Under the pieces are notes generated by a model that saw only the letters and a program-made list of their open reading frames with translations, was not told the origin of the DNA and did not search any database. A stretch of 38,870 bases of DNA, taken from positions 1 through 38,870 of the forward strand of contig NZ_JASJEB010000090.1 of NCBI RefSeq assembly GCF_030064895.1. Direction: 5' to 3'. The DNA is from Crocosphaera sp. GTDB taxonomy: Bacteria; Cyanobacteriota; Cyanobacteriia; Cyanobacteriales; Microcystaceae. Both the position numbers and the translations under genes were made by a program. Numbering within the stretch: position 1 is the first letter of the stretch; each line of letters opens with the position of its first letter. Of the stretch, positions 4,431 through 14,307 are shown one piece after another.

Positions 4431-6665
4431 ATGAGTTCACCTCGTCATCCCTGGCAATTGTTCGACTTTGCCGTTATCCCAGTAGCTCTGGCCTATTGGA
4501 TCAGTGGTTTATTGGCTCATGCAAGTACCAACCTTAACACGGAGGTTGCCCCTCTTTGGGTTCCCAGTGGCATTGCTTTAACTGCATTGCTAATTTATGG
4601 GGAAAAAGTCTGGTTAGGCATTTTTCTGGGTGATGCTCTGTTGATGTTTGCTTTAGGAGTAAACTGGGGACTAATCCTAAGTTCTGCTGGCGGTAGCACC
4701 CTCTGTGCTTGGTTAGGGTTTAAATTATTGCGTTGGTGCGGTTTTTCCTCTCGTTTGTCTCGCATCGATGATGTGGTCCGGTTAATCTTGTTAGCAGGGA
4801 TGCTTGCTTCTGGGGTCAATGCAACCTTAGAAAGCTTGTCAGCTTTGTTGATGGGTTCTCTCAATTGGCAGAATTTTGCCTCACACTGGTGGATGGTGGG
4901 GTTAGGGGACTGTAGTAGTATTTTGGTGATAACGCCTTTTGTATTGCGAATTTGCCTTGATGGGGCAGGTTTATTTCGGCGTTATCACAAACAGCGAGTT
5001 ATCGAAGTGATTATCTGTAGCGGACTTTTATTGGGGTTAAGTTGGATGGTTTTTTCTCATCATAACCAGGTAGATATGTTAATGGAAGGCAGTTTGAGTA
5101 ATGCTCGTTATTTGGAATATTTACCTTTCCCCATCGTGGTTTGGGCGGCTATTCGCTTCCAAACTTGGGGGGCGGTTTTAGGTAGTTTCTGTTTAGCTTT
5201 ATTGGCGATCGCGGGAACACTCCAAGGAGTCGGTCCGTTTGTGATACAAACTAATAATGATTCTCAAACTATTTTGTTGCTACAAATGTTTATTATTGTT
5301 GTCAGTGGCACTGCTTTATTATTATCAGCAGCAGTGACAGAAAGACAACGGGCAGAACTACAGTTAAGAAGAACTTTAGAACGGGATCATTTGTTGGCGG
5401 AAGTGTCTTTGAAAATTCGTCAATCTCTTGATTTGGAACAGATTTTTAAGACTACTGTTACAGAAATTCGTCAGTTAATTAAGGCAGATAGGGTATTTAT
5501 TGCATCTTGGCAAGATAGCGGACGTATTGAGGTGGTAGCTGAGTCCCTTAATGGTGATTATCCTAGTTTATTAGGAAGTAATGCTAGGGATAATTTGTTA
5601 ACGGCTTTACCGTATCTTTTTACCCAGGCAGAAACGTTTATTGCTGATGATATTACCAACTTTAATTTATCCCCAACGGTACAAGAATATACCCAACGTT
5701 ATCAGATTAAGGCTGCTTTGGTAGTGCCTTTACATTTAGATGGTAAACCATTAGGTTTATTGGTAGCTCATCAATGTTTAGGAGTCCGTCGTTGGCATAA
5801 ACAAGAGGTGAAATTATTAGAACAATTAGCCGGTCAAGTTATGATTGCTATGAGTCAGTCCCAACTTTACCAAACGGTACAAAAGTTGAATTGTAATTTA
5901 GAAAAACAGGTAGAAGAACGCACCCATCAACTACAAGAAAAAATCAGAGAAGTTCAAAAGTTACATGATATGAAGGCGGTGTTTTTACAGGCAGTTTCCC
6001 ATGATTTACGTACGTCGATTATGGGTTTATTAATGTTGTTAAAAAATAGACAAAATTGTGCTGGAGATAGCTTAACTTTATCTCGGTCTATTCTGGATAG
6101 AATGATCAATAGTAGTGAGCGTCAATTAACTTTAATTAATGCACTATCTGAGGATCATTTTTCTGAAGAACGACATTTAATGATTCATTCTGAACCGTTA
6201 TCTTTATCTGAATTCATTAATGAACTTATCCGAGAATGGCAGCCATTGTTACAGCAAAATCAAGCTAATTTAATTGCTAATATTAACCATAATTTACCCT
6301 TGATTTGTGGAGACAAAGAACAACTTCATCATGTGTTTGATCATCTTGTTACTAATTCCCTAAAACATAATCCTCCTGGAATTAATTTAGGTATTGATGT
6401 AACGGTTAAACAAGGAATGATCTATTGCAGTTTAACTGATAATGGGGTAGGAATGTGTGAACAACAATGTGATCAATTGTTTAAATTATACCTTCGTAGT
6501 TTACACGATAGAAGAAGAACTGGTATCGGTTTAGGTTCTTACCAATGTCGTCAAATTATTGAAGCACATGGGGGTAAAATTGGGGTAAGAAGTACCCCCG
6601 GTCATGGCTGTCAATTCTGGTTTACCCTTCCTATGGCTAAAAGTCAACCTTCAGCAGTAAGTTGA
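4431..6665 (+). CDS. MASE1-GAF sensor histidine kinase
   Basis: A 744-residue membrane sensor kinase. Residues about 8-305 form a MASE1 sensor with eight or more membrane helices, including the APLWVPSGIALTALL signature. A GAF domain follows at about 335-480, ending in the phytochrome-like pattern LGLLVAHQC...RRW...LLEQLAGQVMIA, and then a coiled coil at about 480-512. The HisKA helix carries the phosphoacceptor H524 in AVSHDLRTS. The ATPase domain has an N-box (VFDHLVTNSLKHNP), DNGVGM, and a G2 box reading RTGIGLG. ATG 4431 is preferred to the GTG at 4413 because GAGAGAG lies 9 bp upstream of it. The ligand is unknown. No regulator gene is co-transcribed, so the partner could be the orphan regulator at 2918-3550. 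Confidence 0.92.
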   Translation: MSSPRHPWQLFDFAVIPVALAYWISGLLAHASTNLNTEVAPLWVPSGIALTALLIYGEKVWLGIFLGDALLMFALGVNWGLILSSAGGSTLCAWLGFKLLRWCGFSSRLSRIDDVVRLILLAGMLASGVNATLESLSALLMGSLNWQNFASHWWMVGLGDCSSILVITPFVLRICLDGAGLFRRYHKQRVIEVIICSGLLLGLSWMVFSHHNQVDMLMEGSLSNARYLEYLPFPIVVWAAIRFQTWGAVLGSFCLALLAIAGTLQGVGPFVIQTNNDSQTILLLQMFIIVVSGTALLLSAAVTERQRAELQLRRTLERDHLLAEVSLKIRQSLDLEQIFKTTVTEIRQLIKADRVFIASWQDSGRIEVVAESLNGDYPSLLGSNARDNLLTALPYLFTQAETFIADDITNFNLSPTVQEYTQRYQIKAALVVPLHLDGKPLGLLVAHQCLGVRRWHKQEVKLLEQLAGQVMIAMSQSQLYQTVQKLNCNLEKQVEERTHQLQEKIREVQKLHDMKAVFLQAVSHDLRTSIMGLLMLLKNRQNCAGDSLTLSRSILDRMINSSERQLTLINALSEDHFSEERHLMIHSEPLSLSEFINELIREWQPLLQQNQANLIANINHNLPLICGDKEQLHHVFDHLVTNSLKHNPPGINLGIDVTVKQGMIYCSLTDNGVGMCEQQCDQLFKLYLRSLHDRRRTGIGLGSYQCRQIIEAHGGKIGVRSTPGHGCQFWFTLPMAKSQPSAVS

Positions 6666-8743: not shown

Positions 8744-9730
8744 CTATGATTGGGATTTGACAAATAATAATTTTAAAATCAAGATTGAAGAAACTACTCC
8801 AAAAATAAAACTACCATTCTTGTGGTTTAACAAAATTAACACAAACTCTGGTGTTATAGAATTTGGTGATAATTCAGATATCTTGTTTTTAAAGTCTTGA
8901 TCAGTTACGATACCTTTTGTCTTAATAAGACCCTCTATTTCCGATTTAGTAGGTATTGTTGCCTCAATAGACACATCTACAGAAAAATGTACCACACAGA
9001 TTAACAAGAACACCAATACCACGAACATTATAAGATTCCCTATAATTTTAGAGTTATAAATATTAATAAATTCATATTTTACCTGTGATGCTACTATAAT
9101 AAAGCCCAGTATAATACCAATTATTATAAATAAGTAATTTATAGATTTTGGTGTATATTTTTGTTTGTATTCGTTTATTGCTTTTTCTATCTTTTGTTCA
9201 CTTATCTTATTATCAGTTTTAATCTCACTGTCTATTTTTTCATCATCTTTAGGTTGTTGAGGTATTGGTATATCTGTTGAGGTTGGGTTTAACTCAATAA
9301 ATCGTTGATTATTTTTGCTATCACTTAAATTACCAGCAATCCATCCTGTGAATTCTTCTTTTGGACAATTAGATAAAGATGTTTGATTATCCTGTGGATT
9401 TACTGTTATTTCATACCAAATTTCTCCGTTAATAAGTTCTACAGCATCATCTTCATTAGTTGTAAATTGTGTCCCTTTTCCAATTGCACAGCTTTTATTA
9501 TTTTCTCCTTTTACTCTATCTGCTAAGGTATATTTCCCATCTATTATAGAAGGAATATCTGTTCTTACTCGTACCCCATTCTGATTTATAACGACTCCTT
9601 GAACTGTTTGGTTAGTACCTGATTGAGCAGTGCTTTGAGAATGTAATTGAGTAATAACAAAAAAAGATACAAAAATAATAAATAATATAGAGATTATTTT
9701 TTTCAACAAAAACTTGGGAGTTTTAAACAT
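8744..9730 (-). CDS. Membrane protein with SH3-like extracytoplasmic domain, unknown function
   Basis: A 328-residue protein that I cannot assign to a named family. Residues about 8-32 are a signal anchor or signal peptide. Residues 40-150 (GVVINQNGVRVRTDIPS...GEIWYEITV...FTGWIAGNLSD) read like a bacterial SH3 domain: an RVR-type start, an IWYEI strand and a GWI strand. A polar linker (155-195) and then three hydrophobic segments follow (about 199-219, 228-250 and 305-325). The likely layout is an extracytoplasmic SH3b domain on a multi-pass anchor. Base composition is more AT-rich than the neighbours. The gene lies between repeat copies 4 and 5 of the 8126 array, which suggests acquisition by insertion. 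Confidence 0.65.
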   Translation of the reverse strand: MFKTPKFLLKKIISILFIIFVSFFVITQLHSQSTAQSGTNQTVQGVVINQNGVRVRTDIPSIIDGKYTLADRVKGENNKSCAIGKGTQFTTNEDDAVELINGEIWYEITVNPQDNQTSLSNCPKEEFTGWIAGNLSDSKNNQRFIELNPTSTDIPIPQQPKDDEKIDSEIKTDNKISEQKIEKAINEYKQKYTPKSINYLFIIIGIILGFIIVASQVKYEFINIYNSKIIGNLIMFVVLVFLLICVVHFSVDVSIEATIPTKSEIEGLIKTKGIVTDQDFKNKISELSPNSITPEFVLILLNHKNGSFIFGVVSSILILKLLFVKSQS

Positions 9731-9919: not shown

Positions 9920-10020
9920 TAAAATCAGGAAGCGGTTGAATGTTATTAAACCCATACGGTGGTATATTTACGGTCAGGGTTCATGATACATTGGCATTAA
10001 TGGTTCAAAATATTCTCGAA

Positions 10021-12039
10021 ATGCCTACTCTTACTGCAACCCCCTTAAACTTTCCCTTAACTGCCGTTGTTGGCCAAGAAGCCATCAAACTCGCCTTATT
10101 ATTAGCAGCAGTAGACCCAGGTTTAGGAGGTGTGGTCATTGCAGGGAGACGAGGAACAGCAAAATCAGTGCTTGCTAGGGGAATACACGCGCTTTTGCCT
10201 CCTATTGAAAGAATAGAAGATAATCCCTTTAACTGCGATCGCAACAAACCCAGTGAATGGGACGACAACACCCAAGAAGAATATTTAAACAAACGCCCCG
10301 AAGACATCACCACAGAAATAGTACCGGCACCCTTTATCCAAGTTCCTATCGGTGTTACAGAAGATAGATTATTAGGGTCGGTAGATGTAGAAGAGTCCGT
10401 TAAACAAGGAGAAGCTATCTTTCAACCTGGTTTGTTGGCACAAGCAAATAGAGGAGTGTTATACGTAGATGAAATAAACCTTTTAGACGATCAAATATCC
10501 AACCAACTCTTAAGCGTATTAACCGACGGTAGAAACCAAATAGAAAGAGAAGGGATAAGCTTTCAACATCCCTGTAAACCTATTCTAATCTCCACTTATA
10601 ATCCCGAAGAAGGACCATTAAGACGGCATTTATTAGACCGAATTGCGATCGCCCTTTCAGCAGACGGAGTATTAGCCCTAGATCAACGGGTACAAGCCGT
10701 TAACCAAGCTTTAGACTATGCTAACTCCCCCCAAAGCTTTCTTGCTCAATATAACGACGAAATAGACGACATTAAAACACAAATTATTTTAGCCAGAGAA
10801 TGGTTAAAAGAAGTTACCATAACTCCTGATCAGGTTCAATATTTAGTCGAAGAAGCCATCAGAGGGGGTGTAGAAGGGCATCGCGCCGAACTTTTTGCTG
10901 TTCGAGTCGCCAAAGCCTCAGCCGCCCTAGATGGACGAAATACTATCAATTCAGAGGATTTAAGAAGAGCAGTAGAACTGGTGATCGTTCCTCGTTCCAC
11001 CATGATGCAACCTCCTCCAGAAGATGCCCCTCAACCTCCTCCTCCTCCCCCACCACAGCAACCTCAAGATGAATCTAATCAAGATGAAGAGGAACAAGAA
11101 GAGGAAGAAGATAATAACGAAGAACCGGAACAAGAACCCCCAGGTATTCCCGAAGAGTTCGTTTTTGACATAGAAGGAGTCATATTAGACCCCAGTGTGC
11201 TGTATTTTGCACAGATGGCGCAAAATCAAGGTAAGTCAGGAAGTCGTAACTTAATCTTTTCCGACGATCGCGGACGCTACGTTAAACCCATGTTACCCAA
11301 AGGCAAAGTCAGACGTATTGCCGTGGATGCAACCTTACGGGCAGCAGCCCCCTATCAAAAATCTCGACGTTTAAAGCATCCTGGACGCAATGTTATCGTC
11401 GAACAGGGTGACATACGTTCTAAGCGTTTAGCACGGAAAGCAGGGGCTTTAATCGTGTTTGTAGTGGACGCTTCCGGGTCAATGGCCTTAAACCGGATGC
11501 AGTCTGCTAAAGGTGCAGTGATGCGTCTGTTGACAGAAGCTTACGAAAACAGGGACCAAGTAGCCTTAATACCCTTCAGAGGGGAACAAGCAGACGTATT
11601 GTTACCCCCCACCCGTTCCATTTCTTTAGCCCGTAAACGCCTGGAAACCTTGCCTTGTGGGGGCGGTTCACCTTTAGCACATGGGTTAACCCAAGCGGTT
11701 CATGTGGGGATGAATGCAAAGATGTCGGGGGATATTGGTCAAGTGGTGATAGTTGCTATTACCGATGGACGGGGTAATATTCCTTTAGCTAAGTCTTTAG
11801 GGGAACCCATACCGGAAGGAGAAAAGCCAGATATTAAACAAGAATTGTTAGATATTGCTGGAAAAATTCGGGCTTTAGGCATTAAATTATTGATGATAGA
11901 TACAGAGAAAAAATTTGTTTCAACAGGGTTTGGGAAGGAGATGGCACAAACCGCCGGAGGTACTTATTATCAGTTACCAAGAGCAACAGATCAGGCTATT
12001 GCACAGATGGCTAGAGGGGCGATCGCTGATTTAAAATAA
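10021..12039 (+). CDS. chlD: Magnesium chelatase subunit D
   Basis: A 672-residue ChlD from ATG 10021. With ChlI and ChlH it inserts Mg2+ into protoporphyrin IX, the first committed step of chlorophyll synthesis. The N-terminal AAA+ domain (about 10-320) has a GRRGTAKS P-loop (42-49) and a Walker B ([13 protein letters not shown]). A proline-rich then very acidic linker (about 330-375) follows. The C-terminal VWA/integrin-I domain has the MIDAS motif DASGS (D483) and a TDGRGN loop. ATG 10021 matches the expected short N-terminus ([21 protein letters not shown]). An in-frame ATG at 9940 with AGGAAG upstream would add 27 residues and cannot be excluded. A repeat copy lies in the leader, and a GUN4-like gene starts 120 bp downstream. 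Confidence 0.96.
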
Positions 12040-12159
12040 TTATTCTCAGATGGGGAAACATTAATGATTTTCCTAAAGGAGACAAATCATAAACTAGGAA
12101 GAGATAGATTAGGTTAGACTAGTTTCATCAGAAATTAAAATACTATTCATTTAAGAGTT

Positions 12160-12714
12160 ATGACTGCCAATAATTGGGACAAGACTGGTGTTATATTTGG
12201 TGGACTTAGTGTAGTAATCGCAATTTTCACATTTATAACCCCAGAAGTAAGATGTAGCTTTGGACTTAAGTCTGAATCTTGTTTACCTCAAGACGACAAT
12301 TCTCCAACAAAAGTTATTCCTACACCAACGATACAAGATTCACAACCCCTATATCCAAGTCCATCACAATCTCGACCTTCTCGGCCTTCTCGGCCTTCTT
12401 CAAAATTACTCCCTACTATAACTTATGACAATTTAGTAAATTTAATAGCCGAAGGAAAATTAGATGATGCTGATAGAGTAACGACTCAGCTTGTAGCAAG
12501 AATCGTTACTATAGGAGGGAATGATACTTGTCAACGTCTTCAAGCTATAGACCAAGCATGGACTATCCATTCTAATAATAAATTTGGATTTAGTAAAAAT
12601 GAAAAGCTACCTAATCGAGTAATGATTAAAAGACTATTAAATCTTCAATCAAGTGTTCAAGGAATTCAATTTGATGATTTAGACACACTGTTGCAAAACT
12701 GCGGGATCTATTAG
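12160..12714 (+). CDS. Membrane-anchored protein with divergent GUN4-like domain
   Basis: A 184-residue protein. Residues about 11-28 form one membrane segment. A low-complexity Pro/Ser/Arg linker (about 50-83) follows, built partly from three 9-bp DNA repeats (SRPSRPSRPSS). Residues 89-145 match the GUN4 pattern: YDNLVNLIAEGKLDDADRVT is the helical 'L..L...GKW.eAD..T' element, and LQAIDQAWTIHSNNKFGFS corresponds to the hallmark 'LrtIDqLWvkyS.GrFGFS'. GUN4 proteins bind protoporphyrin and Mg-protoporphyrin and stimulate Mg chelatase. This one lacks the usual Trp-containing segment before the hallmark, so porphyrin binding is uncertain. Its place directly downstream of chlD, same strand, makes a role with the chelatase plausible, though GUN4 domains also occur in unrelated signalling proteins. 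Confidence 0.7.
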   Translation: MTANNWDKTGVIFGGLSVVIAIFTFITPEVRCSFGLKSESCLPQDDNSPTKVIPTPTIQDSQPLYPSPSQSRPSRPSRPSSKLLPTITYDNLVNLIAEGKLDDADRVTTQLVARIVTIGGNDTCQRLQAIDQAWTIHSNNKFGFSKNEKLPNRVMIKRLLNLQSSVQGIQFDDLDTLLQNCGIY

Positions 12715-12871
12715 TGCGATCACCGATCAAAATGAAACCTAACCATCATAAATTTGTGTTTAATTATATTAGTGGCAATAGAATGTTAGAGAAAAACTAA
12801 CCGAGCGTTATAATGGACTTAACAAGCTATTATTAAGGATTTTAGAAATTCAGCCATGGCCTCCATAAGAT

Positions 12872-13035
12872 ATGGTAAATTTGCTAGTAAAGACTATTGA
12901 AAGAGGACAAGCAACTATCGATTCTGCTGAAGCTAGTATTCAAGAAGTCAAAAAAAATTGGAGTTTATGATGGATGAATCTTTTTCTGTCCCTGATGAAA
13001 ACTTAAGACAAGAAAGTGTCAAAAACTTACAATAA
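12872..13035 (+). pseudogene. Two overlapping micro-ORFs, probable gene remnant
   Basis: ATG 12872 to TGA 12970 encodes 32 residues (MVNLLVKTIERGQATIDSAE...). ATG 12967 overlaps that stop in an ATGA arrangement and encodes 22 residues ending at TAA 13035. The peptides look like decayed fragments (EASIQEVKKNWS then ESFSVPDENLRQESVKNLQ) rather than complete proteins, and neither is recognised. The stretch 12715-13249 otherwise holds stops in all frames and scattered coding-like pieces (for example TFGLEIEEVLGIANIELLRQ near 13055). Confidence 0.4.
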
Positions 13036-13249
13036 GTACAAATAAACTAAGACTTTTGGCTTAGAAATTGAAGAAGTTTTAGGAATAGCAAATATCGAAC
13101 TTTTGCGCCAACCTAGAAAACGTCTAGAAAACTCGGTTAACAATTCAATTACATGATGTAAATTACTTAATATTGTTGGTTAAGTTAAGGATAGATAAGC
13201 ATAAAAAATTATGACAATCACTCCAAAATCAGAGTAAAAAAGAAAAACA

Positions 13250-13528
13250 GTGAAAACTGCTACACAAGATAGTAAAACTCTCTTTTTACAACAAGCAAGT
13301 ACATTTAGTTATGATACTTGTATCTCTGAATTAAGAAACAATATTTATCAAGCAAGAGGACGTTCTGAAACCGACGAAGATGTATTTTCTTGACAGGGAT
13401 ACCTTAACCCATCTTCATGCAGGTAATACTAATTTTATTAATCGATTATAAAGCTTAAAATATGAAAAAATCGCTGATTTATATGATAAAATCTTGAGAG
13501 AACAGATAGAACATAAAAATAAAAAATA
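13250..13528 (+). pseudogene. Decayed toxin-antitoxin fragments including a VapC N-terminus
   Basis: GTG 13250 to TGA 13393 encodes 47 residues (SYDTCISELRNNIYQARGR...). Overlapping its end, ATG 13380 to TAA 13451 encodes a 23-residue peptide, MYFLDRDTLTHLHAGNTNFI, which is very like the first strand and helix of VapC/PIN toxins ('FLDTDTLTHLHAGN'). It then stops. A last fragment, KYEKIADLYDKILREQIEHK, runs to TAA 13527-13529, which overlaps the ATG of the next gene as TAATG. The order suggests remains of one or more antitoxin and toxin genes once translationally coupled to the genes at 13529-14307. Confidence 0.5.
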
Positions 13529-13813
13529 ATGACAATAGACGTTAGACAAGCGGTTAGTCAAGCCAAAAATCATGTGAATCAAATTATCGATCTTTTTGGC
13601 AAAGTAAATGATATCAGATTAGAAGAAATAGAACTATCATCAGACAAAAAATCCTGGTTTATAACCTTGGGTTTTTTATTTGATTCACCAATTAATCAAC
13701 AGAAAACTATTCCTGATATATTAAAGACGACAATGAAAATAAGAGAATATAAAGTTGTTGAAATAGATGCAGAGACAGGAGAACTTAAATCGATTAAAAT
13801 CAGAGAATTATAA
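13529..13813 (+). CDS. Small protein paired with PIN nuclease (PepSY-like, possible antitoxin)
   Basis: A 94-residue soluble protein. It opens with a helix (DVRQAVSQAKNHVNQIIDLF), then LEEIELSSDKKSWFITLGF and a final REYKVVEIDAETGELKSIKIREL. The 'YKVVEIDAETGE' ending resembles PepSY-type beta strands. Its stop codon overlaps the ATG of the following PIN-domain gene by one base (ATAATGG). The one-base overlap, the small size and the nuclease partner fit a toxin-antitoxin style module, but there is no DNA-binding motif and I do not recognise it as a known antitoxin. Confidence 0.7.
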   Translation: MTIDVRQAVSQAKNHVNQIIDLFGKVNDIRLEEIELSSDKKSWFITLGFLFDSPINQQKTIPDILKTTMKIREYKVVEIDAETGELKSIKIREL

Positions 13814-14307
13814 TGGATTATATTGAGAAACTTTTAAATAGATATCGAAATAAAGGAATTTTAATTGATACTAATATTTTGTTACTTTTAATTGTAGGAT
13901 CTTCTAACCGTAAGCGAATTTCTCAATTTAAACGAACTGAACAGTTCATCCCTGAAGACTATGATTTATTAATCAAACTTATTGATCTATTTCCTAAAAT
14001 AATCACAACTCCGAATATTTTAACTGAAGTTAATAGTTTAACCAATCAAATAGGTGAACCAGAAAGATCTAAATGCTTTGCTATATTTGCTCAATTGATT
14101 TCTGAAATAGAGGAATTTACTTTATCTAGTCAAGATATTGTTAAAAATAATGGATTTATCAAATTTGGGTTGACTGACTGTGGAATTGTAGAAGTATCTA
14201 AGAATCAATATTTAGTTTTAACTGATGATTTTAAATTGTTTAATTATCTACAAAAATTAGGAATTGATTCGATTAATTTTAATCATCTTCGAGTTTACTT
14301 ATGGTAA
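13813..14307 (+). CDS. PIN-domain nuclease-like protein
   Basis: A 164-residue protein with the acidic residues of a PIN nuclease in order: D19 in ILIDTNILLLL, E72 in TTPNILTEVNSL, D122 in GLTDCGI, and D138/D139 in VLTDDFKLFNYL. It ends INFNHLRVYLW. It is longer than typical VapC (about 130 residues), and the segment 'FKRTEQFIPEDYDLLIKLIDLFPKIITTPNILTE' gives it a distinct, recognisable subfamily look. PIN proteins are Mg2+-dependent RNases. The gene is translationally coupled to the upstream 94-residue protein. The active site is complete and the frame is intact, so it is probably functional. Whether it is a toxin or has another RNA-processing role cannot be told from sequence. Confidence 0.82.
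   Translation: MDYIEKLLNRYRNKGILIDTNILLLLIVGSSNRKRISQFKRTEQFIPEDYDLLIKLIDLFPKIITTPNILTEVNSLTNQIGEPERSKCFAIFAQLISEIEEFTLSSQDIVKNNGFIKFGLTDCGIVEVSKNQYLVLTDDFKLFNYLQKLGIDSINFNHLRVYLW

Follow-up and report, generated by a model that had tools for sequence, protein, structure and literature searches.

Results

Layout of the locus

The window (the whole 38,870-nucleotide stretch of Crocosphaera sp. DNA analyzed here) carries, 120 bp after the stop codon of chlD, an open reading frame whose 184-residue product joins an N-terminal hydrophobic helix and a linker to the first half of a GUN4 domain. Further downstream lie two broken gene copies and a two-gene pair. The features, with locus L091 of a relative as the reference for the broken copies, are:

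9940-12039, plus strand: chlD, magnesium chelatase ATPase subunit D (TIGR02031 equivalog, 800 bits, cut-off 499.55); a neighbor, not counted in the system
12160-12714, plus strand: ORF for the 184-aa, membrane-anchored half-GUN4 protein, ATG to TAG
12184-12240, plus strand: N-terminal hydrophobic helix, residues 9-27 (Kyte-Doolittle mean 2.13)
12241-12282, plus strand: residues 28-41, a segment that follows the helix and contains C32 and C41; recurs in other cyanobacterial anchors
12283-12411, plus strand: Pro/Ser/Arg-rich linker, residues 42-84, assigned from its sequence
12412-12609, plus strand: GUN4-like half domain, residues 85-150 (PF05419 positions 6-83 of 141; local profile 47.3 bits)
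12610-12711, plus strand: C-terminal 34 residues (151-184), which stand where GUN4 would have its second half and have no recognized relatives
12780-13166, plus strand: relic, a copy of a 113-aa gene with its 5' end truncated; relatives have the gene intact (88% DNA match to L091 5635-6019; frames broken)
13191-13510, plus strand: relic, a broken copy of a gene that we take to be PIN/VapC-like (83% DNA match to L091 6562-6890; in-frame stop)
13529-14307, plus strand: pair of genes, 94 aa and 164 aa; the same pair follows chlD in genomes G003 and G004, with the second gene shortened (74 aa) in G003

The ORF at 12160-12714 is coding-like. Against a codon reference made of eight window genes it scores +0.177 in frame, whereas the shifted and reverse frames score -0.245, -0.099 and -0.166, and the in-frame score is above zero in all three parts of the protein. 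The product has one hydrophobic helix, at its N-terminus, where the best 19-residue hydrophobic stretch starts at residue 9. A search of 11950-13530 gave no terminator-like site, where chance alone would yield 0.7, and no promoter-like site was found on the plus strand in the gap between chlD and the ORF, so that co-transcription or read-through from chlD is possible. On the other side of chlD, a minus-strand ORF at 8744-9730 contains paired cysteines and hydrophobic segments and appears to encode an exported protein; its best Pfam match (E 0.017) is below the cut-off.

A GUN4 domain that ends halfway

The Pfam GUN4 profile PF05419 matches residues 87-152 of the protein with 36.6 bits (E 6e-9, cut-off 29.2), and the same place scores 31.5 bits in a genome-wide scan, again above the gathering cut-off. 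A local profile built from 44 other GUN4 domains, with the window protein excluded, gives the score listed above, while the best of 1000 shuffles of residues 85-184 reaches 5.3 bits. The 44 domains of this profile, which also underlie the counts below, include L015 and L144 but neither the window nor L030, whose frame is short, nor L046, which is the ORF of L025 again; a separate 45-row domain alignment leaves out L014 (contig end), L019 (stops), L029 and L015 (cutting pattern unfit). As judged by these profiles, the GUN4 homology of the 184-residue protein is secure. A search of NCBIfam with the protein gave no match, and a PDB sequence search returned only a plant GUN4 chain, with E 0.32. 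The descriptive part of the sequence-only reading is thus borne out: it had proposed a shortened GUN4-like protein behind a membrane helix 120 bp after chlD, and the homology, the truncation, the helix (as a hydrophobic segment) and the spacing are all found.

What the protein lacks is the second half of the full-length PF05419 domain. The GW-type and GHLP-type motifs, each found in 43 of the 44 other GUN4 domains, are absent, as is LxNxLR, which occurs in two of the 44, namely the canonical pair of the same genome. The retained half keeps its conserved residues, and in the alignments C124 falls in the column of a cysteine typical of accessory GUN4 domains; a strict text pattern for this cysteine fits 39 of the 44 domains and does not fit the half-GUN4 protein. 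By alignment, the homology stops before the pocket region around W189/W192 and GHLP, and residues 189-217 of the GUN4 structure 1Y6I lie beyond the half that is kept; within that stretch, we take W189, R214 and R217 to have roles.

Two further residues of the stretch are named in published work, N211 in PMC10156173 and W192 in PMC8967248. In the former, LxNxLR is described as a bilin-contact motif whose key Asn is kept by no member of the paralogue clade considered there, and replacing this Asn in Chlamydomonas GUN4 abolished bilin binding but not porphyrin binding (PMC10156173). The latter locates the tetrapyrrole contacts of GUN4 in two places, helix 2 and the loop that joins helices 6 and 7 (PMC8967248). 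The region of the helix 6-7 loop is absent from the half-GUN4 protein. Because both the pocket and the loop regions are gone, the protein would be expected to have lost pigment binding.

The C-terminal tail has no significant match. When residues 125-184 were searched against 386 genomes, no match outside the window extended beyond residue 166. We rejected a homologous C-terminus (NCGIY against NCGK or CNI ends), for which 29 of 300 shuffles were as good, and a second GUN4 copy within the tail, which scored -1.5 bits. An AlphaFold2 model of residues 80-184, computed from the single sequence without an alignment, has five helices but is too weak to speak for or against the GUN4 fold (mean pLDDT 65.5). 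With this model, a Foldseek search of the PDB listed no GUN4 among the best 50 of 59 matches at E ≤ 10, and no match reached E ≤ 0.001.

A recurrent membrane anchor

The first 56 residues match five other genomes in a search of 195 genomes of the order (own genome included), and at loci L101 and L103 the same anchor leads into a complete GUN4 domain. C32 and C41 are invariant across five aligned anchors, and a wider anchor search added examples: with the five-row anchor alignment, 31 of 388 genomes of the class, own genome included, were matched at E ≤ 0.01. From this search 29 other anchor loci were fetched and 18 read, of which 16 have the anchor; L151 and L152 were dropped as unrelated multi-span proteins, and 10 of the 11 unread loci, whose frames have the length of L151 (369-370 aa), are probably unrelated too. 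At L144 the anchor again continues into GUN4, and the others lead, by eye, into a part resembling SH3, pentapeptide-like repeats or tails of low complexity (a Pfam search of the SH3-looking L137 gave no match). The recurrent unit of helix, two-cysteine segment and linker bears differing C-terminal parts at L101, L103, L104, L137-L150, L161 and L164. The window protein has the architecture of helix, cysteine pair, linker and GUN4, with the domain truncated. No chlD was seen, by eye, in the 10 kb fetched around L101, L103 and L144. In genome G141, a small ORF at L196 3136-3408, some 0.9 kb away from the anchored GUN4 gene, resembles a high-light-inducible protein in its motif.

We analyzed the charges flanking 17 anchors, leaving out L138 and L149 (near-copies), L102, L104 and L105. 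The net charge of the N-terminal tail is positive in 10 and zero in seven, never negative, and that of the C-terminal flank is negative in seven and zero in 10, never positive, which fits an N-inside, C-outside orientation. Counts of Lys and Arg alone do not clearly give this orientation: the N-tail has more than the C-flank in seven anchors, an equal number in four and fewer in six, the window (1 against 2) and L101 being among the six. The window's own anchor is net neutral on both sides. At L104 the anchor is preceded by a kinase-like domain; this locus is a weak anchor match (E 0.003, 27% identity) and is itself a row of anchor alignment A2. The GUN4-like part of the window protein may accordingly be extracytoplasmic, a placement that is a lean on mixed evidence because of the Lys/Arg counts, the neutral anchor, the weakness of L104 and the lack of any Pfam match above the cut-off for partner domains of an exported kind (L137 and L144). 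Among 46 GUN4 ORFs scanned, a hydrophobic segment precedes the GUN4 domain in only 11 (among them the window ORF, three others of its genome, L012, L015 and L017, and two kinase-like ones, L022 and L026), and most accessory GUN4 domains may therefore be cytoplasmic.

The position after chlD in relatives

ChlD was found at E ≤ 1e-200 in 24 of 27 genomes searched, a count that takes in the own genome and the partial matches in G002 and G024. When the 24 chlD loci (flanks up to 1.5 kb) and nine longer stretches were scanned with the GUN4 profile, the window alone was positive, so that the survey of chlD linkage that had been set beforehand as a check found GUN4 nearby at one locus of 24, the window itself. 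The downstream view was shortened in four of the 23 other loci: G007 (870 bp), G025 (242 bp) and G026 (94 bp), all at contig ends, and G024, where the chlD match is partial.

What follows chlD varies among the nine relatives that were read. In G003 and G004 the 94-aa gene starts 120 bp after chlD, compared with 1489 bp in the window. By eye, G005 and G016 have a coiled-coil-like small protein there, and G007, G001, G006 and G010 each have a different other content; in G002 the next listed ORF is on the minus strand. At L091 both relics have intact counterparts, a 113-aa ORF at 5484-5825 and a 140-aa gene, the latter intact in relatives as well. Against 38 other genomes (E ≤ 0.001, with at most nine candidate places scored per genome), the DNA of 12040-12779 matched only G004, in two pieces of 26 and 56 bases at its end. 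The place of the ORF beside chlD is probably a coincidence.

Relatives of the protein and of its GUN4 domain

We found no orthologue of the half-GUN4 protein in the 38 other genomes. Matches occurred in 20 of them, all to GUN4 domains of other proteins, with a best score of 30.9 bits and identities of at most 45% over query residues 38-162; ORFs were read at 27 of the 30 match places, L029 and two places without a locus being left out. A wider contig search also returned L050, discarded as a long ORF with, by eye, tetratricopeptide-like repeats. Viral contigs gave no match to the protein or to anchor alignment A3, phages gave none to the protein, and plasmids gave two Nostoc records that cover 37% and 35% of the query, in the GUN4 part only. 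No relative of the same make-up was found in the genomes searched.

The GUN4 domain itself is widespread: it was found in all 100 genomes of the order scanned, own genome included. The own genome has 19 PF05419 matches, 18 of them above the cut-off; by eye, two of the 19 look canonical, and other domains are fused to kinase-like, TIR-like, NACHT-like or caspase-like parts. The match below the cut-off (L019, G000:C29:3351-3551) is decayed, with two internal stop codons. Accessory GUN4 domains have already been described in PMC7159879, PMC8195603, PMC1262709, PMC2853523 and PMC7517822. Because only two of the 19 matches look canonical, neither GUN4 homology nor a place beside a chlorophyll gene should be equated with chelatase function.

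In nine accessory domains of the own genome (L003-L008, L010, L011 and L013), the stretch after GHLP, which is the place of the pigment loop in canonical GUN4, is 13-31 residues long and has a mean pairwise identity of 0.19, compared with 0.58 for the core; identity is low over the last 11 residues as well (0.29), so that the loop is not the only variable part. The GUN4 part of the window protein is matched by the PADLOC model PD-T4-6 (PDLC04062; 27.3 bits, positions 307-381 of 450), a defense model that appears, by this match, to include a GUN4-like region. At L129 (genome G055) there is a short GUN4 protein with a signal-peptide-like start and a short first loop that matches only profile positions 4-105 (63.9 bits); the same genome has a second copy of this type of gene (L166), at 67% identity, and a broken third.

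Discussion

The explanation that we prefer, with middling confidence and about as much chance of being wrong as right, is that the ORF encodes a strain-specific, membrane-anchored accessory GUN4 protein, non-canonical, truncated to the N-terminal half of its domain and possibly decaying, and that its occurrence behind chlD is owed to the variability of this site in the genome. In this scheme, the N-terminal helix would insert into the membrane, and the cysteine-containing segment and flexible linker would tether a small helical module whose most likely location is across the membrane, in the periplasm or the thylakoid lumen. As it lacks the tetrapyrrole pocket, the module would act neither as a porphyrin carrier nor as a chelatase stimulator; if functional, it would presumably present a surface for protein contacts.

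A serious rival, appreciably less probable than the explanation just given, is that the ORF is a decaying remnant of an anchored full-length accessory GUN4 gene that has lost its second half and whose product has no function. The ORF adjoins the two broken genes at 12780-13166 and 13191-13510, no orthologue was seen in the 38 other genomes, its surroundings (12040-12779) are unmatched there apart from the two short G004 pieces among the places scored, and the last 34 residues have no significant match. These observations must be weighed against 184 open codons with gene-like codon use in all three parts and against the conserved residues kept in the GUN4 half. The same codon use would suit a working minimal module, in which the first GUN4 helices and a new C-terminus make up a small and stable domain that has its own partner. 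The five predicted helices (in the weak model) and the existence of another short GUN4 protein at L129 point the same way, but the confidence of the model is low, it has no fold match, and this truncation is known from one example; we consider such a module quite improbable.

The sequence-only reading had suggested that a tethered GUN4 might localize magnesium chelatase or a porphyrin to the membrane, or serve as a decoy regulator. The 120 bp spacing from chlD without a terminator-like site, the GUN4 homology and the unsettled topology speak for this proposal, but the chlD linkage is not conserved, the pocket regions are missing, and, according to PMC10156173, loss of the Synechocystis paralogue sll1380 gave no gun4 phenotype. 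The proposed role thus finds no support; a chelatase role for the protein is unlikely, and we regard the proposal as a whole as highly improbable.

More broadly, it is conceivable, though doubtful, that exported GUN4 domains make up a class of recognition modules outside the cytoplasm that have ceased to sense tetrapyrroles; their former pigment loop would have turned into a rapidly changing binding loop, and the window protein would be a loop-less minimal version on a recurrent anchor. The possibility of extracytoplasmic GUN4 domains, together with the variability at the pigment site, bears on the idea, put forward in PMC7159879, that accessory GUN4 domains sense intracellular tetrapyrroles. 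We found no description of a membrane-anchored or half-length GUN4 in the GUN4 literature, which was covered mostly through listings and in part, so that this is weak evidence of absence.

Comparison with known GUN4 proteins

Canonical GUN4 (Synechocystis sll0558, PDB 1Y6I; PF05419) shares with the half-GUN4 protein the segments YxxLxxLL...ADxxT and LQxIDxxW..HSxxKFGFS. It is a soluble protein that has a helical domain at its N-terminus and a core that is complete, GHLP and LxNxLR included, whereas the window protein has a membrane anchor and linker and only the first half of the core. The best pairwise scores of the half-GUN4 protein are with the accessory domains L024 and L026, which places it nearest to the accessory GUN4 domains of kinase, TIR, caspase and trypsin-like proteins, as described in PMC7159879, PMC1262709 and PMC2853523. 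Like them it is without LxNxLR and has a cysteine, C124, in the accessory column; unlike them it has no effector domain and no second half of the GUN4 domain. The anchored proteins L101, L103 and L144 have the same helix and cysteine-pair anchor, followed by a linker, as the window protein, and carry on it a longer GUN4 domain (Pfam positions 2-125 in L101 and L144; longer by alignment in L103), to which L144 adds a carboxypeptidase-regulatory-like match below the cut-off.
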